A stretch of DNA of 46,138 nt from Citreicoccus inhibens (lineage in GTDB: Bacteria > Myxococcota > Myxococcia > Myxococcales > Myxococcaceae). Where the stretch lies: contig NZ_JAHNZT010000050.1 of NCBI RefSeq assembly GCF_019039035.1, forward strand, positions 1-46,138, given 5' to 3'. A program made the position numbers and the translations under genes. Positions 29 to 27,867 of the stretch are shown here, piece by piece (position 1 is the stretch's first letter; each line of letters begins with the position of its first letter). The notes below the pieces were generated by a model that was given only the letters and a program-made list of their open reading frames with translations, did no database searches and was not told where the DNA came from.

Positions 29-1038
29 CCGCCCGAAGCCGTGCGCACCAGGAACACGCGCGCCTTGGGCGACACCGCATGCGTATTCACGTCGTAGTCG
101 TACCAGTCCCCCAACACCGCGTTGCCCGGAGACGTGTCCCCCGTGGGCCCCGGCGACGTCACCACCACGTCCTGCACGTAGCCCACGGTGGGCGCACGCT
201 GCACCGCCGAGACCTCCGCCGCGTCCGCCACCCGCGCGCCCCCGAACCCCGGGCCGCTGGCGCCGCCATTGGTGCGCCACTGCGTGCGCCGCACCGCGAG
301 GTCCCAGTCGCGCGACGTGGCAGGGTCCGCCACCTGCACCACCCCGCGGCCCACCTGGAGATAGACCCACGCATCGGACGCGGAGGCATCCACCTGAAGC
401 TCGCCGGTGCCCGGGGCCTGCACCTTTCCCCAGCGCAGTTGGAGCATGGCCGGCGTGCCCGCGGCGTCGTAGTACGTGAGCATCCGCACCTTGAACCAGG
501 TGCCCTCATCCGAGCGCACGACGTACACGCGGTCGCGCGGGGACAGCTTGTGCGTCACCGCGTCGTAGCTGTACCAGCCTTCGCCCGCCTCGAAGGCCGT
601 GTCCGGGTCGGTCCCCACGTCATCGCCATCCGCCGCGTCCGTGGCGTAACCGGCCGTGGGCGCCTGAGACAGCTGCGCGAAGTCCGCGCCCGGGAGCGTG
701 GCCACCTCCACCCCGCCCTGCCCGTTCACGCCGCCGCGAGTGCGGATATGGAAGCGCTGGAAGGCCAGGTCCCACTTCGCGTCCTGCGTCGCGTCCACCT
801 GACGGCCCGAGTCCAAGTCCAACGCCACCCAGACGTCCTTGCTCGTCGCATCGACCGTGGTCGTGAAGGTGCCGTCGCCGTTGTTGGCGTGGCGCATGTT
901 CGCGTCGCCGCCCTCTTCGGCGGGCGTCTCGGGAGGATCTCCCGGCTTGGGTTGGAGGTCGTCGTTGCAGCCGACGAGCAGGCACAGCGGGAGGGCCAGT
1001 CGGCGCAGCAAGGCGAGGCCGGAGGACGGTCGATACAT
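1..1038 (-). CDS. HmuY-family lipoprotein with two tandem HmuY-like domains (3' end cut by the window)
   Basis: Predicted surface lipoprotein of the HmuY hemophore-like family; 346 residues are visible and the frame stays open through base 1. A signal peptide ends in lipobox LVGC (lipidated Cys24), followed by an acidic linker. Two copies of one domain follow: WDLAFQR (about residue 89) and WDLAVRR (245), APTAGY and APTVGY, WYSYDAVTHKLSP (155) and WYDYDVNTHAVSP (312), then RVYVVR and RVFLVR. The start ATG at 1038 has AGGAG a few bases upstream. It lies 31 bp behind a TonB-dependent receptor on the same strand, under one Fur box. HmuY of Porphyromonas binds heme; binding here is inferred, since heme ligands cannot be assigned by eye. 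The end of the second domain is missing. Confidence 0.85.
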   Translation of the reverse strand, partial: MYRPSSGLALLRRLALPLCLLVGCNDDLQPKPGDPPETPAEEGGDANMRHANNGDGTFTTTVDATSKDVWVALDLDSGRQVDATQDAKWDLAFQRFHIRTRGGVNGQGGVEVATLPGADFAQLSQAPTAGYATDAADGDDVGTDPDTAFEAGEGWYSYDAVTHKLSPRDRVYVVRSDEGTWFKVRMLTYYDAAGTPAMLQLRWGKVQAPGTGELQVDASASDAWVYLQVGRGVVQVADPATSRDWDLAVRRTQWRTNGGASGPGFGGARVADAAEVSAVQRAPTVGYVQDVVVTSPGPTGDTSPGNAVLGDWYDYDVNTHAVSPKARVFLVRTASGGYTQLLITTY

Positions 1039-1069
1039 GCGGTTCTCCTGAGGAAGGAAAGACAGACAG

Positions 1070-2998
1070 TCAGCGACGGATGACGAGTCCGGCGCGGAAC
1101 GAGCGCGGCGCGAGCGGCAGGTCATTGGGGTTGCCCGCGCCCGTGAGGTTGGTGCCTTCGACAAAGAGCTGGAGCCCCGCGGGGAGCTGGCGCGCCACGC
1201 GGGCATCCAGCGTCACGTAGGGAGAGGCCTCGTATGGCTCCGCGACGCCGTCGCCATCCGAGTCCGGAGCGAACGGCCTCGCGCCCACCCACGCGCCGCG
1301 CACCCACGTCTCCAAGCCCCAAGGGCGGAAGCGCCACGTGGCCTGCGCGGTGACGCGATGGCGCGCCTGTCCCTCCAGCGGCAGGCCCGAATCCTGATCA
1401 TGCCCATCGGTGAGCGAGTAGGTGGCTTCCAACATGAGCCCACCGGGCAAGCGCTGCCGGGCCCCCAACTCACCGCCGCGCACCTTGGAGCGCGCCACGT
1501 TGACGTAGACGAAATGCTGCCCCTCCGCGTCCTGCTGGAGCGACACGCCGATGCGGTCGCGCAGCGCGTGCTGATAGACGCTGACCCACACGAGCGAGGC
1601 GGGAGTCGGCCGCACCTCCACGCCCAGGCTCGCGCTGCGGGAGCGCTCGGGCCGCAGGTCCGGGTTGCCATTCACCGTGTACCCGACCGTGGGGTTCTCG
1701 AAGTCGAGCAGCAGCTCCTGGAAGCTGGGCGCGCGCAGCCCCCAGCCGTAGCTGGCGCGAACCGTGAGCCACTCCAGCGGATCCACTCGCGCCGCGAGCC
1801 GAGGCGTGACGGCGGCGCCGAACTGCGTGTCCGCATCCAGTCGCGCGCCCGGCACCAGCACCAGGCGCGGCTGAGACGCCACGGACCAACTGTCCTGCAC
1901 GTACAGCGCGCCCCGTCCCCGCTCGCCCCGTCCCCCCTCCAGACGGTCCGACGCGAGCCGCTCGCCGAGCAACTCCAGGCCCGCCACCAGCGCGTGGTCA
2001 CCCCCGAGGCGCGCATCGAGCTGCGTGCCCAAGCGCCCCTGCTGCTCGCGCGTGTCCTCCACGCTGTCCAGCGCGGAGGCCTGTCGTTGATCTCTCAGCG
2101 CACGCCGCGCGAACCACGCCACGTGGCCCTCGGTGCGCAGCGTGGTGGACTCGCCCAGTCTCCAGGAAGGCGCCACGCGCGCATTGAGCTCCTCGTCGCG
2201 GCTCGCCCGGTCGAACACCGCGCCCGCCGTGCCCAGGTCCACCCCGCGCTGGATGCGCCGCGACACGGACACCGTGCCCGCCAGGTCCATGGCGCCCTGG
2301 CCGCGCAGGTCGCCGCGCGCCGAGAGCTGAAAGCCCTCCAGGCTGCTGCCCGTGGTGCCCACGTCGCTGGGGTCCAGGTCATACCCATTCCGGCGCTGCA
2401 CGCCGCCGCTCAAGCGCAGGCCCCACGTCTCTCCGCGCGCCTCGCCCGTGCCGTCCAACTCCAAGCGCTGAAGGCTGCCGTATGACAGCCGCAGGTCCCC
2501 GCCGAGCGGGCGCTGCGCGCGACGGGTGATGAGGTTCACCACGCCCGCGACGGCATCACTCCCGTAGAGCGCGGATGACGGCCCCTTGACGATCTCCACC
2601 TGCTCGATGTCTTCGAGGGACAGTCGTGACAGGTCCACGCTGCCCGCGACACGGCCCGTGACGCGCTCGCCGTCCACCAACACGAGCGCGTACTCGGGGC
2701 CCAGGCCCTGGATGCGCAGCGATGCGCCCGAGAAGGTGTTGTCCACCTCCAGCCCCGGATGCGCGGCGAGCAGCGCCGCGACATCGTGCTTCCCGCTCGC
2801 CTCGATGTCGCTCCGGGTGATGACCTCCGTCGCCACCGGCGCATCGACCAGCCGCTCCGGGCTGCGCGACGCCGTGACGATGGTGCGCGCCATGGGCACG
2901 TCCTCCACGCCCGCGTCGGGGCCCGAAGGCAGCGCCTCGCCCAGCACCCGGCCGGGCAGCGCCCAGGCCATGACCAACACGAACCCACGCCAGGACAT
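1070..2998 (-). CDS. TonB-dependent outer-membrane receptor (heme/iron type)
   Basis: Outer-membrane gated channel of 642 aa, usual length for CirA/BtuB/HmuR-type receptors. A signal peptide ends near residue 20. The plug domain covers roughly residues 38-165: TASRSPERLVDAPVATEVIT near the start, then RIQGLGPEYALVLVDGERV and VEIVKGPSSALYGSDAVAGV, the standard plug signatures. The rest is a beta-barrel with GLRAPSFQELLL and NPDLRPERS motifs typical of these receptors. The last residues are RR rather than the usual aromatic ending. GGAGG lies 7 nt before the ATG. It sits between a Com-like zinc ribbon and a HmuY-like lipoprotein, downstream of a Fur box, so heme or ferric-chelate uptake is the likely role. 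The substrate itself is inferred from context. Confidence 0.93.
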   Translation of the reverse strand: MSWRGFVLVMAWALPGRVLGEALPSGPDAGVEDVPMARTIVTASRSPERLVDAPVATEVITRSDIEASGKHDVAALLAAHPGLEVDNTFSGASLRIQGLGPEYALVLVDGERVTGRVAGSVDLSRLSLEDIEQVEIVKGPSSALYGSDAVAGVVNLITRRAQRPLGGDLRLSYGSLQRLELDGTGEARGETWGLRLSGGVQRRNGYDLDPSDVGTTGSSLEGFQLSARGDLRGQGAMDLAGTVSVSRRIQRGVDLGTAGAVFDRASRDEELNARVAPSWRLGESTTLRTEGHVAWFARRALRDQRQASALDSVEDTREQQGRLGTQLDARLGGDHALVAGLELLGERLASDRLEGGRGERGRGALYVQDSWSVASQPRLVLVPGARLDADTQFGAAVTPRLAARVDPLEWLTVRASYGWGLRAPSFQELLLDFENPTVGYTVNGNPDLRPERSRSASLGVEVRPTPASLVWVSVYQHALRDRIGVSLQQDAEGQHFVYVNVARSKVRGGELGARQRLPGGLMLEATYSLTDGHDQDSGLPLEGQARHRVTAQATWRFRPWGLETWVRGAWVGARPFAPDSDGDGVAEPYEASPYVTLDARVARQLPAGLQLFVEGTNLTGAGNPNDLPLAPRSFRAGLVIRR

Positions 2999-3095
2999 GC
3001 CGCGTCCTCCGGCTCACGGCCGGCTGGCCCTCCTCACCGGGAGGACCCATTGGGCGCTGGGCTCTTGGCCTCGGGCCTCAGTCAATCATTCCCAC

Positions 3096-3269
3096 TCACG
3101 CCGTGCGATGCCCCCGCGCCGGAGGCACCGGGGACGGCGACGACTCCAGCGGAACCACCTGGGTCCGATGGCAGCGACGGCACTTCAGCTCCACGCCACC
3201 GGGGACCAGCCGCGCCAGCAGGCTGCCGCACAGGCACCGCAGCTCCCCTTCCGCGCACCCATCCTTCAT
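3096..3269 (-). CDS. Com-like zinc-ribbon small protein
   Basis: A 57-aa protein with a single zinc ribbon: Cys12-x-Cys14-Gly, then Cys30-Arg-Arg-Cys33, in the arrangement RCLCGSLLARLV and ELKCRRCHRT. This resembles the Com family, named after the phage Mu translational activator of mom, although Mu Com spaces its first pair as CxxC. A Pro/Ser-rich tail follows. It is the first gene after the Fur box on the minus strand, 97 bp before the TonB receptor. The ATG at 3269 is preferred because it begins just before the ribbon; longer in-frame versions run through the Fur box. A nucleic-acid-binding role is inferred from family only. The link with iron uptake is by position. Confidence 0.7.
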   Translation of the reverse strand: MKDGCAEGELRCLCGSLLARLVPGGVELKCRRCHRTQVVPLESSPSPVPPARGHRTA

Positions 3270-3299
3270 CCACCGCTCCCGGCTCGAAACGGCTAACAC

Positions 3300-3318
3300 G
3301 ATATTGATACTCATTATC
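3300..3318 (-). promoter_or_regulatory. Fur box
   Basis: The 19 bases GATATTGATACTCATTATC match the classic Fur consensus GATAATGATAATCATTATC at 17 of 19 positions. It is an AT-rich island in GC-rich DNA, 31 bp upstream of the zinc-ribbon gene and heading the minus-strand uptake operon. Fur with Fe2+ would be expected to repress the operon when iron is plentiful. The opposite strand has no gene starting nearby in the outward direction. Confidence 0.88.
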
Positions 3319-3409
3319 AATGTCAAATGACGCATCGACCGACCAAGCCACACGGAGCGCGGGCGCACGGGGCGTCACGGCTCGAGTGTCACCGGCCTCA
3401 CGTCAAGGG

Positions 3410-4051
3410 TCAGTGGAGCTTGGGACGGGCACCGGCCTCGCGGGACGCGCGGGGCTTGCGGGTGACCATCCGGGCGATGCCGAAGTAGAGCTGTTCCTCG
3501 GTGTACACCTTGCGCACCCGGCGGCTTCGCGCTCCGGGGTGATAGGCGGGACCGGGGCGCTCCAGCCACTGGAAGATGCGCACCTCGCCGGTGTGGGCCA
3601 GCTCGGACAGCAACTCCACGGGGCACACCTTCAGGTAGCGGCGGACCAACGGGCGCAGCTTGCGCGAGAACTCGGCGCCCAGCACCGCGTGACGGCGGCC
3701 TGCGTGCAGGGTGCCATCGAAGCGGCGGGACATGTGGAACAGCTCGTGGATGACCGTCTCCACGCGCGCCTGCGCCGTCGAGCCTCGGAAGAAGAGGGGC
3801 CGAAGCGTGATGCAGTACAGCATCCGCCGGCCCCGGATGCGCACCACCGGCTTGCGGCGTCCGGCACGGTCCGCGGCCCGGCCGCCTCGGAAGCACAGGG
3901 GCTTCACGGTGCCACGCGACGCGCGCCTCGCCTCGCCGGCCACCACGAGAATGCGGCTGGCCTTCACGTGGCTGAACTCCGGCATGCGCGCCGCGATGTC
4001 GCGGATGAGGGCGCGGAGCGTCTTGTTGAAGTTGGGGCGGCGGGGGGCCAC
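3410..4051 (-). CDS. Putative zinc metallopeptidase (HExxH, SprT-like or phage-metallopeptidase-like)
   Basis: About 213 aa. The central motif VETVIHELFHMSRRFDG carries a HExxH zinc-binding site. Preceding strands are rich in Arg (RRKPVVRIRGRRMLYCITLR), and a C-terminal basic region (VRKVYTEEQLYFGIARMVTRK) follows. The family is annotated as putative metallopeptidase; the natural substrate is unknown. The start is uncertain: GTG at 4051 begins just before the conserved N-terminal region NKTLRALIRDIAARMPEF; ATG at 4108 would overlap the divergent lipoprotein gene. No strong ribosome-binding site is seen for either. No signal peptide is visible, so it is probably cytoplasmic. Confidence 0.72.
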   Translation of the reverse strand: MAPRRPNFNKTLRALIRDIAARMPEFSHVKASRILVVAGEARRASRGTVKPLCFRGGRAADRAGRRKPVVRIRGRRMLYCITLRPLFFRGSTAQARVETVIHELFHMSRRFDGTLHAGRRHAVLGAEFSRKLRPLVRRYLKVCPVELLSELAHTGEVRIFQWLERPGPAYHPGARSRRVRKVYTEEQLYFGIARMVTRKPRASREAGARPKLH

Positions 4052-22964: not shown

Positions 22965-23348
22965 ATGCTTTCCATCCAGGAGCATGGATCGGTGGAAGAG
23001 GCGAGCAACAACCTGCTCGACTTCATCCTCGTGCCGGACAACTGGCTCGCGGCATCCGTGGCGAGCCCCCGCCCGCAGGCCTGGCCTGCACCAGACATCC
23101 AATACCAACGTCGCGTCGGTCCGCTGCGCATCTGCGCCTCGGTCGACGTGGCGCCCTCGCTGGACGTCGTGTTGCACATCGCCTTCCGGGCACCCGGGCT
23201 CACGCCCGTGAAGGCCGCGGACCACCTCGAGGATTTCCTCAAGCAACGCCTGCCGCTCACCCCCAACACCGAGTGGCAGGTGGAGGTGGATGAGCGCCGG
23301 TGGATCCACTTCACGCGGCGCTACGTCAGCGCGCACCTGAAGGCCTGA
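22965..23348 (+). CDS. Conserved-looking protein of unknown function (127 aa)
   Basis: 127 aa, no signal peptide or membrane segment. ATG 22965 has GGAGGTGAGCG directly upstream, a strong ribosome-binding site. The sequence is a soluble alpha/beta-type protein (HGSVEEASNNLLDFILVPDN, then RVGPLRICASVDVAPSLDVV, VEVDERRWIHFTRRYVSAHL). I recognise no family. It converges with the nucleotide cyclase with a 9-bp gap. It may share a transcript with the 52-aa candidate frame upstream. Confidence 0.7.
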   Translation: MLSIQEHGSVEEASNNLLDFILVPDNWLAASVASPRPQAWPAPDIQYQRRVGPLRICASVDVAPSLDVVLHIAFRAPGLTPVKAADHLEDFLKQRLPLTPNTEWQVEVDERRWIHFTRRYVSAHLKA

Positions 23349-23357
23349 GCCGGCGCG

Positions 23358-24974
23358 CTACCGCTGCAGCCGGAAGTGCCGCAGCGGGTGCGCCACGTTC
23401 TTCACGGGCGTCTCCGTGAGCGGACCGAACTGAAGCTTCTGAATGAAGGGCTCGCGCGAGGTCTGGAGTACCTCGCGCGCGCTCTCCATCACCAGCGTCT
23501 CGCGAAAGCCCGCGAGCGACTGGAGGCGCGCGGTCTGGTTCATCCCGCTGGAGAACGCCGTGTAGTTGCGGTTGGGACCGAACAGGCCGCAGTTGGCGTT
23601 CGCCAGGTTCACGCCCACTGCCACGCCCAGCCCGGGCAGCTTCACGCGATGGCACAGCGCGGCCACTTCCTCACGCGCGCCCATGGCGGTGGTGAGGTCC
23701 TGGATGTCACATGCGGCGCGGACCGCGGCCTCGGCGCGGCGCACGCGGTCGCCCTGGAAGAAGGGCGGGCCGAACAGGCCGATGACGCAGTCGCCCACCA
23801 TCTTGTCGAAGACACCGCCGTGCTCCCAGATGCAGCCCACGGCGCGCTCGCTCCACTCGTCCACGAAGCGGCCGATGCTGCGCGGGCTGTCGAAGCCTTG
23901 CTCGCAGATGCGCGTGAAGCCGTTGATGTCCGCGAACAGGATGCCGACCTCCTGGTCCTGCGCGCGCAGGTGTTGCGCGTAGTCGGGGTCCTGGAGGAGC
24001 GCGTTGATGACGGCCGTGGGGAAGAACTGGGACAGGTGGATGCGCTCGCGGTGGTAGTCCAGCAAGCGCTGGCTGAGGGTGGAGGCCAGCACCCGGATGA
24101 GGTCCATGGTGTAGGCCGAGAAGCCGTCGTCGCTCCAGACGACAATCTTCCCCAGCGGCTCACTGCCCGCGGCGGCGGCGATGAGCACCGCCTCGGTGGT
24201 GCGCCCGGGGAACAGCGTCCGCAGCACGCCCGGCGCTCCAGCCAACAACCGCGTGCCGTGCTCGCGCAGCACCTGCTCCAACGGGGCGCTGGGCTGCGCT
24301 CCGGTCTCGTACTCCAGATGACCGTGGCGGTACGTGCGGTAGTGCAGCTCCTGCGGGCGCACGGCGTCGCGGTACAGCAAGAGGAAGCCCGGCAACCGCA
24401 CGCGCTGGGACAGCGTCAGCACCGCCTGATCCATGCCCGCCTCGAACACGGGGTTGGCCAGGTGCTGATTGCAGTGGAGGATGAGCTGGTGCTTCTCCGA
24501 CGCGGTGTGCACGAGCACCAGCACCGTGTCGAGTTCCTCCGCGATGGCGTCCAGCATGCGCAGCATCCGCCCGACGCGCTCGCCGTCCCCCACGTCCGCC
24601 GCGAAGCGCAGGCCCAGCGTGCCCACCTGCGCTCCGGCCACGTCCAGCGGCTGGGTGACGAGCGTGTCCGCGTCCAACCGCCGCGCGCCCTCGGGCCCTT
24701 GCAGCAAGGTGCCGGGGAGGTGGTCACCCCAGTCGCCCTCGCTCCACGTCTGCTCTTGGAGTTCCTCGTCGCGCGTGGTGACCGCGATGGCCTTCGCACC
24801 GGTGAGCGCGAGGATGGACGGAAAGCAGCGGCGGAAGGTGCGCGTCAGGTTCTCACGCTCGCGCAGGCTCTCCTCCAGCAGCGCGTCCACGGCGCGGCTC
24901 AGCTCGCGCAAGGCCTTGTACTCCTCCACGGACAGGTCGGCGGTCAGGGGCGGGAGCAGTGGGGCCTGGTGCAT
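23358..24974 (-). CDS. GAF-linked class III adenylate/guanylate cyclase
   Basis: 538 aa from ATG 24974. Residues about 45-310 hold GAF-like sensory regions. The class III cyclase domain spans about 340-530: metal-binding Asp349 (GILFADINGFTR) and Asp395 (DKMVGDCVIGLFG), substrate Lys391, and Asn479 and Arg483 of the transition-state motif. The usual substrate-specifying Asp or Thr three residues before the Asn is Ser476 (AFSSGMNQTARL). Makes cAMP or cGMP in principle; specificity cannot be read from sequence. The start lies 32 bp after the stop of a calcineurin-like phosphoesterase gene, so both are likely cotranscribed. Confidence 0.88.
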   Translation of the reverse strand: MHQAPLLPPLTADLSVEEYKALRELSRAVDALLEESLRERENLTRTFRRCFPSILALTGAKAIAVTTRDEELQEQTWSEGDWGDHLPGTLLQGPEGARRLDADTLVTQPLDVAGAQVGTLGLRFAADVGDGERVGRMLRMLDAIAEELDTVLVLVHTASEKHQLILHCNQHLANPVFEAGMDQAVLTLSQRVRLPGFLLLYRDAVRPQELHYRTYRHGHLEYETGAQPSAPLEQVLREHGTRLLAGAPGVLRTLFPGRTTEAVLIAAAAGSEPLGKIVVWSDDGFSAYTMDLIRVLASTLSQRLLDYHRERIHLSQFFPTAVINALLQDPDYAQHLRAQDQEVGILFADINGFTRICEQGFDSPRSIGRFVDEWSERAVGCIWEHGGVFDKMVGDCVIGLFGPPFFQGDRVRRAEAAVRAACDIQDLTTAMGAREEVAALCHRVKLPGLGVAVGVNLANANCGLFGPNRNYTAFSSGMNQTARLQSLAGFRETLVMESAREVLQTSREPFIQKLQFGPLTETPVKNVAHPLRHFRLQR

Positions 24975-25006
24975 GGGGGCCCTTCTACCGCCGAGGCCCC
25001 CCGGTG

Positions 25007-25861
25007 TCACAAGCGGGGGGCGTGCCGCTGCCCACCCACCACGGCGCCACCCGACACCTCGATGAGCCAGCCGCCCTCGTGCCCTGCCTCCGTCGACGAG
25101 CCCGCGCCGAACAAGTGGGGGCGGTCAGCCGTGGCGGGCAGGTGATAGCGCTGGTGGATGTGGCCGTGCAGCACGGCGAAGCGCGGCCCGCGCAACAGGC
25201 CCAGCAGCGCGTCCGCGTCACGCAGCCCGTGGAGCCGGTGGTCCGGCGCGCCCTGCGCCGTCCGAGGCGCGTGGTGCACCGCCACGAGCAATGCGCGACG
25301 GGCCAGCCGGGGATCCGCCACCACGGCCGCCAGCCCCTCGAGTTGCGCCTTGCCGACGTACCCCGCGGCAATCCCGGGCGCGGGCGGCACGCGCGCCGAG
25401 CACAGCCCCACGACGGCGGCGCCCTCCCCCACCAGCCGCACGAACGGGTACGGCCCCTCGCGGCGATGCTCGGGCAGGTCGCTCTCCATCAAGTGTCCGA
25501 AGTGGCGCGCGAAGCGGCCCGTGCGTTGGCTTCCCGGCGTGTAGACATCATGGTTGCCAGGGATGACCGTGCAGCGCCGAGGGTCCGCGGCGAGCGAGCC
25601 CAGCGCGGAGCGCGCGCCCTGGAACTCGGCCTCCAGGGCATAGGCGGTGAGGTCCCCTGAGAGGATGAAGTGGTCGGCGCCCAGCGCGCGCGTGTCCGCG
25701 GCCAGCGTGGCGAGCGTGCGCCGTGCCTGCCGATACGCCCTCGCGCGGCCTCCCACCGACAGCTCCGCGAGCGCGAGCCACCGCCGCCACCCCAGCTTGC
25801 GCCAGGGCAAGGCGAGGTAGTCCTCGGTGATGTGGACATCGGAGCAGTGGAGGAAGCGCAT
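25007..25861 (-). CDS. Calcineurin-like metallophosphoesterase (possible cyclic-nucleotide phosphodiesterase)
   Basis: 284 aa from ATG 25861. All metal-site motifs of the family are present in order: FLHCSDVHITED, ILSGDLTAYA, VIPGNHDVYTPG, VAVHHAPRT, and VLHGHIHQRYHL. That layout is like CpdA-type class III cAMP phosphodiesterases, but such motifs are shared by many phosphoesterases, so the substrate is inferred. The cyclase gene lies 32 bp downstream on the same strand. Together they could make and hydrolyse the same cyclic nucleotide. Divergent from a sensor histidine kinase (182 bp between). Confidence 0.9.
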   Translation of the reverse strand: MRFLHCSDVHITEDYLALPWRKLGWRRWLALAELSVGGRARAYRQARRTLATLAADTRALGADHFILSGDLTAYALEAEFQGARSALGSLAADPRRCTVIPGNHDVYTPGSQRTGRFARHFGHLMESDLPEHRREGPYPFVRLVGEGAAVVGLCSARVPPAPGIAAGYVGKAQLEGLAAVVADPRLARRALLVAVHHAPRTAQGAPDHRLHGLRDADALLGLLRGPRFAVLHGHIHQRYHLPATADRPHLFGAGSSTEAGHEGGWLIEVSGGAVVGGQRHAPRL

Positions 25862-26043
25862 GGAACCAACTCCCCGGGTCGAACGACGGGCCCCTGGATG
25901 CGCATTCTGGCGGGAAGCGGCGAGCAAGAAAGGCCCACCTGTGCACGCAGTGACGGTGGATGTCGTTCCGACGATGAACTGTTCCCTCTCACGGACCGGC
26001 GCGCCATCCTCGCGGGTGCCGGACGCCAAGGAGGTGGATGCCC

Positions 26044-27867
26044 ATGGATGCGCTGGCGGACCTGCTGGAATCCCAGGCCGGGGAGCTGGCGCAGCGCTGG
26101 AGCGCGCGGCCCCTCCCCCTGCCGCGAGACCTGCCCGGCCTCCTGCGAGTGCTCGCCGGGGCCCTGCGGGCCGCCGACGCTGCCCCTCCGTCCAGCGCCG
26201 AGCCGGCCTCCGCAGCCCTGTCCACGGGGGATCCAGCATCACGCGTGCGCGCGTACGCACGGCTGCGGAGCCTGCTCCTCGAGTGGTTGGAGGCACAGCG
26301 CATCCCCGTGCGCCTCTCGCAAGTGAGCGCGCTCACCGCCTCGCTCGATGCCGCGCTGGAGCGGGAGCTGTCGGAGCACGGCCCGCCCATGCGGGCGAGC
26401 AAGGCGTCCGCGGAGCTAGAGGCCATCTTCGCCAGCATGGTGGACGCCGTCTATGTCGGGACCCGCGACGGAATCACCCGCGCCAACGGGCCCGCGCTGG
26501 AGCAACTGGGTTACGACAGCATCGAGGCGCTCAATCGCAACATCGGGACGCTCGCGCGGGAGATCCAGACGCGCCGGGCGGACACGGGCGAGCCCATCTC
26601 GATGGCGGAGCAGGCCTTCAGCCACGCGCTGAGCGGCGAGCGAGACGTGCAGGAGGTGCTCATCCGCCACCGCAAGACAGGGGAAGACCGCGTGGTGCGC
26701 GCCGCCTGCGGCCCCATCGTGATGGACGGGCACGTGGTGGGCGCGGTGGCCATCAACACGGACATCACCCAGGCGCAGCGCGCGAAAGACGCCCTGTCAC
26801 GCACCGAGCGAGAGCTCCGCGAGCTGGCCGAGTCCATGCCCCAGTCGGTGTGGATTGCCACGCCGGATGGAGACATCACCTACGTCAACCAGGTGATGGA
26901 GCTCTTCACGGGCCGCCCACGGGAGCTGCTGCTGGGCCGGCACTGGGAAGACCTCATCCACCCGGATGACCAGGTGCGGTCCTGGGAGCACTGGAAGCGC
27001 GCGCTCGACACGGGCTCGTTCTACGAGGTGGAGCATCGCTCGCGACGGCACGACGGCACCTATCGCTGGTTCCTCGCGCGGGGCAGGCCCCTCAAGGACG
27101 AGCGGGGGCGCGTCCTCAAGTGGCTCGGCACCAGCACGGACATCCACGATATGAAGCTGGCGCAAGAGGAGGCGCGGCGGCGCGCCGGCTTCGAGCAGCA
27201 GCTCATCGGCATCGTGAGCCACGACCTGCGCAACCCCATCAGCGCCATCCTGCTGGCGGCCACGGCGTTGACTCGCCACACGGAGGCCTTGGATGAGCGG
27301 ACGCTCAAGGGGCTCTTGCGCATCCAGGCCATCGCCGAGCGCGCCACGCGCATGGTGCGCGACCTGCTGGACTTCACCCAGGCGCGGCTCGGGGGCGGAC
27401 TCGGCATGCGCAAGGCGGAGCTCGACCTGGCGGTCCTCGCGCGACAGGTGGTGGACGAGGTCAAGGCCACCCACGTGGACCGGGACGTCCACCTGGACAT
27501 CCGGGGCGAGACGCGCGGCGCCTGGGACGCGGACCGGCTCGCGCAGGCGCTCATCAACCTCATCACCAACGCGCTCCGCCACGGGTCCTCGACCGCGCCC
27601 GTGACGGTCACCGTGCGAGGGGACGCGCGGGCCGTGAGCGTGGGCATCCACAACCAGGGCCCCCCCATCCCAGCGGAGCACGTGAGCCGCCTCTTCCAGC
27701 CCTTCCAACGCGGCGCGCCGGATGCGGACGCGGCGGGGCGCAGCGTGGGGCTGGGGCTCTACATCGTGGATCAAATCGTCCGGGCCCATGGCGGCGCCGT
27801 CGAGGTGCACTCCGCCCGCGAGACGGGCACCACCTTCACGCTGCGACTGCCACGAGACCGAGGCTGA
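26044..27867 (+). CDS. Double-PAS sensor histidine kinase
   Basis: 607 aa, soluble, no transmembrane helix. The first about 100 residues (LADLLESQAGELAQRWSARP) resemble the RsbRD-type N-terminal helical domain of many myxobacterial kinases. PAS1 is about 130-255 (VYVGTRDGITRANGPALEQL), PAS2 about 265-375 (SVWIATPDGDITYVNQVMEL; WLGTSTDIHD). HisKA H-box: IVSHDLRNPISAILLA; N-box: LINLITNALRHGSS; G-box: VGLGLYIVDQIVRAHGG. AAGGAGGTGG precedes it; ATG 26044 gives a 9-nt spacing, while ATG 26038 gives only 3 nt. No partner regulator is adjacent, so it is an orphan. The next gene starts 33 bp later. Confidence 0.93.
   Translation: MDALADLLESQAGELAQRWSARPLPLPRDLPGLLRVLAGALRAADAAPPSSAEPASAALSTGDPASRVRAYARLRSLLLEWLEAQRIPVRLSQVSALTASLDAALERELSEHGPPMRASKASAELEAIFASMVDAVYVGTRDGITRANGPALEQLGYDSIEALNRNIGTLAREIQTRRADTGEPISMAEQAFSHALSGERDVQEVLIRHRKTGEDRVVRAACGPIVMDGHVVGAVAINTDITQAQRAKDALSRTERELRELAESMPQSVWIATPDGDITYVNQVMELFTGRPRELLLGRHWEDLIHPDDQVRSWEHWKRALDTGSFYEVEHRSRRHDGTYRWFLARGRPLKDERGRVLKWLGTSTDIHDMKLAQEEARRRAGFEQQLIGIVSHDLRNPISAILLAATALTRHTEALDERTLKGLLRIQAIAERATRMVRDLLDFTQARLGGGLGMRKAELDLAVLARQVVDEVKATHVDRDVHLDIRGETRGAWDADRLAQALINLITNALRHGSSTAPVTVTVRGDARAVSVGIHNQGPPIPAEHVSRLFQPFQRGAPDADAAGRSVGLGLYIVDQIVRAHGGAVEVHSARETGTTFTLRLPRDRG

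Follow-up and report, generated by a model that had tools for sequence, protein, structure and literature searches.

The phosphodiesterase and cyclase gene pair

We analyzed two adjacent genes, encoding a calcineurin-like phosphodiesterase (PDE) and a class III nucleotide cyclase (CYC), in the myxobacterium Citreicoccus inhibens (assembly GCF_019039035.1). The window, i.e. the whole stretch of DNA analyzed, comprises the 46,138 nucleotides (nt) of contig NZ_JAHNZT010000050.1. A preliminary description had read the two genes as one unit, a self-limiting cyclic-nucleotide module of a synthase and its possible hydrolase. The extent (23358-25861), shared strand, and spacing of 32 bp given there were borne out, with PDE (25861..25007) upstream of CYC (24974..23358) on the minus strand. 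The features, with protein lengths in amino acids (aa), are:

25007..25861, minus strand: PDE, calcineurin-like (class III-type) phosphodiesterase, first gene of the pair; 284 aa, ATG start, Pfam PF00149
24975..25006, minus strand: intergenic gap of 32 bp, with a ribosome-site-like AGAAGG before the CYC ATG (sequence reading)
23358..24974, minus strand: CYC, class III nucleotide cyclase without a hydrophobic segment, second gene; 538 aa, ATG start, PF00211
24030..24974, minus strand: CYC N-terminal region, residues 1-315, with two predicted GAF-like alpha/beta domains at ~43-172 and ~177-315 (AlphaFold2)

The 9.05 Mb genome holds 14 cyclase-domain and 27 metallophosphoesterase matches, and random gene placement would yield ~0.01 pairs in which a same-strand phosphoesterase ends ≤ 500 bp upstream of a cyclase. 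The pair is real and ancient, and it is probably co-transcribed. Scans for a terminator-like site between the genes (0 found, 0.8 expected in shuffles) and for a promoter (0 found, 0.1 expected in shuffles) were uninformative. Because a PAS histidine kinase gene (26038-27867, plus strand) lies upstream of PDE in divergent orientation and a 127-aa open reading frame (ORF; 22965-23348, plus strand) converges on CYC from the other side, the predicted transcription unit is of these two genes only. Since neither protein has a hydrophobic segment of transmembrane strength (maximum 19-residue hydropathy 1.3 for PDE and 1.4 for CYC), both are probably cytosolic.

The kinase was rejected as a third member, as, of the 70 loci compared, only those of the two genomes from the window's genus have it at that place; 30 of the 70 have flanks of ~1.5 kb or less. 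The 127-aa ORF, which had no Pfam match at E ≤ 0.1, adjoins CYC in those loci of the window's family that carry the pair, and adjoins PDE in five loci without the cyclase.

Catalytic domain of the cyclase

Pfam recognised the catalytic domain of CYC alone (Guanylate_cyc, PF00211, 6.6e-9). Its six catalytic residues (D349, K391, D395, T472, N479, and R483) are identical in 57/57 distinct orthologues aligned, and all are kept in 30/30 remoter relatives. The latter were searched with the patterns FDKMVGD and [FY]ADIN[GS]FT, so that the invariance of K391 and D395 among them arises partly by construction; T472, N479, R483, and the FSxGMN motif fall outside these patterns. This set omits L132 and L143, and its L128 seems to duplicate L041, a 6,042-base contig that the 57 orthologues already include. 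All residue counts (57 CYC, 50 PDE) were taken from fetched loci rather than from every matching genome.

With two metal-binding Asp residues, the transition-state Asn and Arg, and a class III fold, CYC belongs among the class III cyclases, as the preliminary description had proposed. Class IIIb adenylyl cyclases recognise adenine through Lys and Thr, the latter in place of Asp. The corresponding K391 and T472 are invariant in the 57 orthologues and line up with the equivalent Lys and Thr of CyaC, so that by its base-recognition pair CYC is of the class IIIb type. CyaC was also the top match in profile searches (1.7e-17) and the best in fold comparisons (Z 24.4, root-mean-square deviation (rmsd) 1.7, 189 aligned residues), tied with Pseudomonas aeruginosa CyaB (Z 24.1). 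The guanylyl cyclase Cya2 came next (Z 22.8), and fold alone thus does not decide the base used by CYC. The family carries the signature FDKMVGDC ... TxFSxGMN, with T-x-F-S-x-G-M-N where CyaC has FTAIGPSVN. As far as residues and folds can tell, the synthase half of the module is well supported.

N-terminal region of the cyclase

The preliminary description had also assigned CYC a GAF region. Pfam gave no GAF match in the window's CYC at E ≤ 0.1, nor did 29 orthologues yield one at E ≤ 0.01, and the GAF reading draws instead on predicted topology and weak family matches. At E ≤ 1, of the N-terminal regions of 27 family members, 7 matched GAF (best 0.0012), the window's CYC not being among them. 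The AlphaFold2 model of CYC (mean predicted local distance difference test score (pLDDT) 87.1) has two alpha/beta units with GAF-like order and a long helix running into the catalytic domain. The phytochrome-cyclase structure 6fht matched CYC over residues 1-538, but with an rmsd of 15.6, and the N-terminal profile had no meaningful match among PDB sequences. The model suggests, and does not prove, that the CYC N-terminus consists of tandem, very divergent GAF domains.

Active site, fold, and family of the phosphodiesterase

PDE matches Metallophos (PF00149, 5.1e-10) and carries the DxH / GD / GNHD / HH / GHxH motifs of calcineurin-like metallophosphoesterases; its metal-site residues D8, H10, D70, N103, H196, H234, and H236 are invariant in 50 distinct orthologues. 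The motifs described earlier as CpdA-style are thus present at the level of the superfamily, but do not identify CpdA itself: against the CpdA equivalog NF008359, PDE scored 26.8 bits, with a curated cut-off of 225. This model was matched by 23/24 PDE orthologues at E ≤ 0.01 (best 3.6e-9). The SpdA model of NCBIfam gave 12.8 bits (cut-off 400), and the best NCBIfam match, an anti-phage phosphoesterase model matched by 24/24 orthologues, gave 38.3 bits (cut-off 420); PDE lay above the cut-off of no NCBIfam equivalog. No gene above the CpdA cut-off was found in the window's genome by a search that was not exhaustive, as it missed the window's PDE; it returned one other gene, also below the cut-off (28.5 bits).

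The AlphaFold2 model of PDE (mean pLDDT 91.0) is nearest to Lmo2642 (Z 24.8), GpdQ (23.9), and Rv0805 (23.7), which are close to ties, and likeness of a predicted model to these folds does not fix the substrate. A profile search of PDB sequences reached Lmo2642 and GpdQ; a single-protein search found nothing at 1e-3.

Conservation of adjacency within the class

Among 145 genomes of the class, a cyclase match was present in 77 (E ≤ 1e-20) and a PDE match in 133 (E ≤ 1e-10, many distant). Up to 10 (cyclase), 17 (PDE), and 7 (phylum-level) candidates per genome were scored, and absences are accordingly not absolute. The adjacency count used all cyclase rows and PDE rows down to ~E 1e-42 plus one fragment in G126, so that a genome scored as having the cyclase only has no PDE match stronger than ~E 1e-42; several genomes with both genes on different contigs have a distant (37-43%) PDE only. 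The 77 include G028 (36% over 204 residues), G131 and G140 (fragments), and G031 (one in-frame TAG), and the cyclase is single-copy in all but one of them.

Of the 77 cyclase-bearing genomes, 50 have PDE directly upstream of the cyclase on the same strand, the matched parts being separated by 33-445 nt. This adjacency spans three families (f1, the window's own, f7, and f9) and is found in every cyclase-bearing member of g1 (2), g2 (3), g4 (16), g6 (23), and g9, g20, and g22 (1 each). Synteny of the block GluQ-(PEGA)-PDE-CYC-o127-RlmN-GCS is largely preserved within the window's family, which makes adjacency there weak evidence. Outside it, PDE and CYC are adjacent in the same order and on the same strand in G058 (f7) and in G072 and G144 (f9), where, of seven further window genes sought, none occurs in the fetched 16, 15, and 6 kb, respectively. 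The best GluQ match of G058 is on another contig, as is that of G072 (37%), which has a partial 46% match ~119 kb off on the same contig; in G144 no GluQ match was found. These pairs are the best argument that adjacency itself was kept, and they suggest selection on the pair. The preliminary description would have yielded to a pair that was not conserved; the pair is conserved, incompletely.

An apparent PDE-CYC fusion at L019 (an 837-aa PDE) was rejected: the BLAST piece apparently reads across the PDE stop, and the open frame there is of 317 aa; the row was dropped before residues were counted. The cyclase of one metagenome-assembled genome (MAG), L048 7165-8790 (plus strand, G031), seen also as L105, has one in-frame TAG and may be a pseudogene or reflect a sequencing error; L048 was left out of one analysis for this stop.

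Relatives of the cyclase outside the class

A scan of a species-genome collection returned 131 stretches with a relative of the cyclase, of which the best 80 were kept with flanks of 6 kb, some cut by contig ends. Among these 80, eight records titled Elusimicrobia, Elusimicrobiota, or Elusimicrobiales encode relatives that are 39-42% identical along most of the protein, and for others titled Polyangia, Myxococcales, or Deltaproteobacteria the identity is 35-39%; PDE was within the fetched locus in 29/80. A phylum-level search matched 79/195 genomes, with no cyclase-less genome of the class among the 79.

The Elusimicrobia-type relatives (L129, L130, L133, L136, L137, L140, L141, and L142) carry FSxGMN, giving the motif a two-phylum distribution. 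At L147 (4277-6004, plus strand), from the MAG Myxococcales bacterium UBA1660, the gene directly preceding the cyclase relative, on its own strand, encodes a Ser/Thr protein kinase. L096 and L106, whose records bear the titles Comamonas sp. KCTC 72670 and Holophaga sp., encode cyclases with 78% and 58% identity, respectively, to the window's CYC, and may be mislabelled or contaminated assemblies.

A proposed cyclic AMP operon

We tentatively propose, at somewhat less than an even chance, that the pair is a cyclic AMP (cAMP) operon in which the product of the cyclase is limited by the adjacent two-metal phosphodiesterase, cAMP being the presumed physiological substrate of PDE. The two genes would form a short operon of cyclic-nucleotide metabolism. 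CYC would be a soluble adenylyl cyclase of the class IIIb type; its tandem GAF-like region, receiving a signal, would switch a homodimeric catalytic domain through the long helix and so control synthesis of 3',5'-cAMP from ATP. PDE, made from the same transcript, would hydrolyse cyclic nucleotides and lower basal cAMP or shorten its pulse. Such a self-limiting cAMP module is plausible but unproven. The 24 matches to cyclic nucleoside monophosphate (cNMP)-binding domains in the genome are possible cAMP receivers.

At another locus of the same genome (G000:C34, L005), a 740-aa cyclase ORF (1249-3471, minus strand) that bears the motif YTVMGDAVN directly precedes the gene for a 216-aa protein (519-1169, minus strand) with a cNMP-binding match, likely a synthase-receiver pair.

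Several observations weigh against a cyclase and phosphodiesterase dedicated to each other. A PDE match without a cyclase match occurs in 26 genomes, and 27 of the 77 cyclase-bearing genomes, some of them fragments or drafts, lack adjacency. In five loci (L051-L055), PDE stands beside the 127-aa ORF with no cyclase between, and G095, the genome of one of them, has its cyclase ~2.3 Mb away; conversely, the cyclase stands beside PEGA/GluQ with no PDE between at L059, L061, L062, L066, L068, and L069, i.e. in 6 of the 13 fetched cyclase loci without a linked PDE. Unlinked PDEs are 77% (G095) and 76% (G107) identical to the window's PDE, compared with 68-75% for linked g6 genomes. Because PDEs away from the cyclase are equally conserved, PDE must serve some function for which this cyclase is not needed; the cyclase, in turn, apparently functions in the absence of this PDE. 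The fetched stretches of L129-L158, which include the eight Elusimicrobia-type records, contain no PDE even at E ≤ 10; as these remoter relatives lack PDE in the stretch fetched, the cyclase family is wider than the pairing. The low score of PDE against CpdA belongs here too, as does SpdA, a class III phosphodiesterase encoded at the cyaD1 locus, which proved 2',3'-specific and whose authors hold that specificity in its class is not predictable from sequence (accessible text of PMC4222275).

The pair has also come apart by separation. In G010, G040, G091, and G118, order and strand are unchanged, but PDE is separated from CYC by 2.4-11 kb that contain other genes, which, by translation only, look unrelated to each other and to the pair; in four g17 genomes the cyclase is far off or on another contig. 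With adjacency as the label, the cyclase tree requires 5 changes, every one forced by well-supported branches, and the PDE tree requires 8, with 5 forced; the 2-11 kb splits, scored as not adjacent, account for 4 of the tree changes. Scored separately, 'PDE away or lost' takes 2 changes, and 'no cyclase adjacent' takes 6, 4 of them forced. These are quick trees with several long branches, and five loci of genomes already present were omitted. The pair is not obligate: it has been broken repeatedly, with either gene lost alone or the two separated. The preliminary reading of one unit thus holds for its two intact active sites, shared strand, and conserved order, adjacent in three families and kept in f7 and f9, but not for an obligate unit.

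Alternative explanations

The general alternative is that PDE is a phosphodiesterase of broad use, acting on 2',3'-cNMP from RNA decay or on glycerophosphodiesters, which shares the transcript without degrading the product of CYC and at most insulates cAMP signalling from 2',3'-cNMP, as has been suggested for SpdA by its authors (accessible text of PMC4222275). Its presence in many genomes without a cyclase match, its equal conservation when unlinked, and its closest folds (Lmo2642, GpdQ, and Rv0805) are consistent with this, as are the specificity of SpdA and the ~150-fold preference for 2',3'-cNMP stated for Rv0805 in the same text. However, in f7 and f9 the two genes stayed adjacent after their other neighbours were lost, a pattern that suggests selection on the pair, and Myxococcus xanthus PdeA and PdeB are stated there to hydrolyse both 2',3'- and 3',5'-cNMP, so that some myxobacterial enzymes of the superfamily can use cAMP. 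We give this explanation and the cAMP module equal weight, each a little short of an even chance, because of the SpdA precedent, the dual activity of PdeA and PdeB, and the finding that overexpression of Rv0805 cut cAMP by ~30% only (available portion of PMC3776917). That adjacency is mere inherited synteny of functionally unrelated genes in a slowly changing block fits the synteny within the window's family and the single loss of either gene, but f7 and f9 lack the block in the fetched stretch and still have PDE and CYC adjacent in the same order and on the same strand, and we consider this explanation improbable.

A Pycsar-like anti-phage system, with a pyrimidine cyclic nucleotide as signal and the phosphoesterase as effector or off-switch, is very improbable. 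The PADLOC Pycsar cyclase model does match the CYC domain (1.8e-9, 35.2 bits), as the anti-phage phosphoesterase model matches PDE and its orthologues, but both matches are at superfamily level, and a defence role was rejected on that ground; the K/T adenine pair is retained, the cyclase is almost always single-copy and within the family syntenic beside housekeeping genes, and no Pfam domain pointing to a Pycsar effector occurred among the five neighbour proteins scanned. Least probable of all, to a vanishing degree, is that PDE is a lipid A or other envelope hydrolase. LpxH belongs to the same superfamily, but LpxI supplies the LpxH step, and a lipid A role was rejected with the finding of LpxI_C in the genome (148.8 bits); no LpxH model was among the six NCBIfam matches of PDE at E ≤ 0.1.

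An evolutionary extension of the cAMP module is rather unlikely: cyclases with FDKMVGDC ... TxFSxGMN would form a separate, deeply conserved class III branch common to Myxococcota and Elusimicrobia, with a divergent tandem-GAF sensor, which in the window's class gained a dedicated phosphodiesterase as operon partner, yielding a synthesis-degradation unit whose sensor sets the cAMP pulse, and lineages would later have lost one half or the other.

Significance

How cAMP is removed in bacteria with many class III cyclases is often open; for Sinorhizobium meliloti, with 26 such cyclases, the accessible text of PMC4222275 identifies no 3',5'-cAMP phosphodiesterase. For the turnover of cAMP in myxobacteria, a conserved pair of cyclase and phosphodiesterase offers a concrete candidate, and lineages with one half missing provide natural comparisons. 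We found no title or abstract opening on this pair in a literature search of limited subscription coverage, which does not show that it is unpublished, and the available portions of PMC2887360 and PMC8538405 contain nothing on it.

Comparison with known systems

The pair is a new example of known enzyme kinds. CYC has the catalytic fold and K/T pair of class IIIb adenylyl cyclases (Spirulina CyaC; PDB 1wc0 series), a class that responds to bicarbonate, but CyaC has IGPSVN where CYC has FSxGMN, and the CYC N-terminus is different and GAF-like. Two GAF-like domains ahead of a class III catalytic domain recall Anabaena CyaB1 and CyaB2, which are reportedly tandem-GAF adenylyl cyclases. NKFDE is the cAMP-binding motif of CyaB1-type GAF domains; CYC differs in that this motif was not found in its sequence, that no PAS domain was matched at E ≤ 0.1, and that its putative GAF domains are too divergent for Pfam.

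PDE shares its metal-site motifs with Rv0805, GpdQ, and Lmo2642, the closest solved folds (Z 22-25), at 15-25% identity in structural alignments. M. xanthus PdeA and PdeB, compared with PDE by their description in the accessible text of PMC4222275 alone, are phosphodiesterases of a related organism. According to the same text, SpdA of S. meliloti, like PDE, is a predicted class III phosphodiesterase at a cyclase locus; the locus is a different one, and PDE matches the SpdA model weakly.

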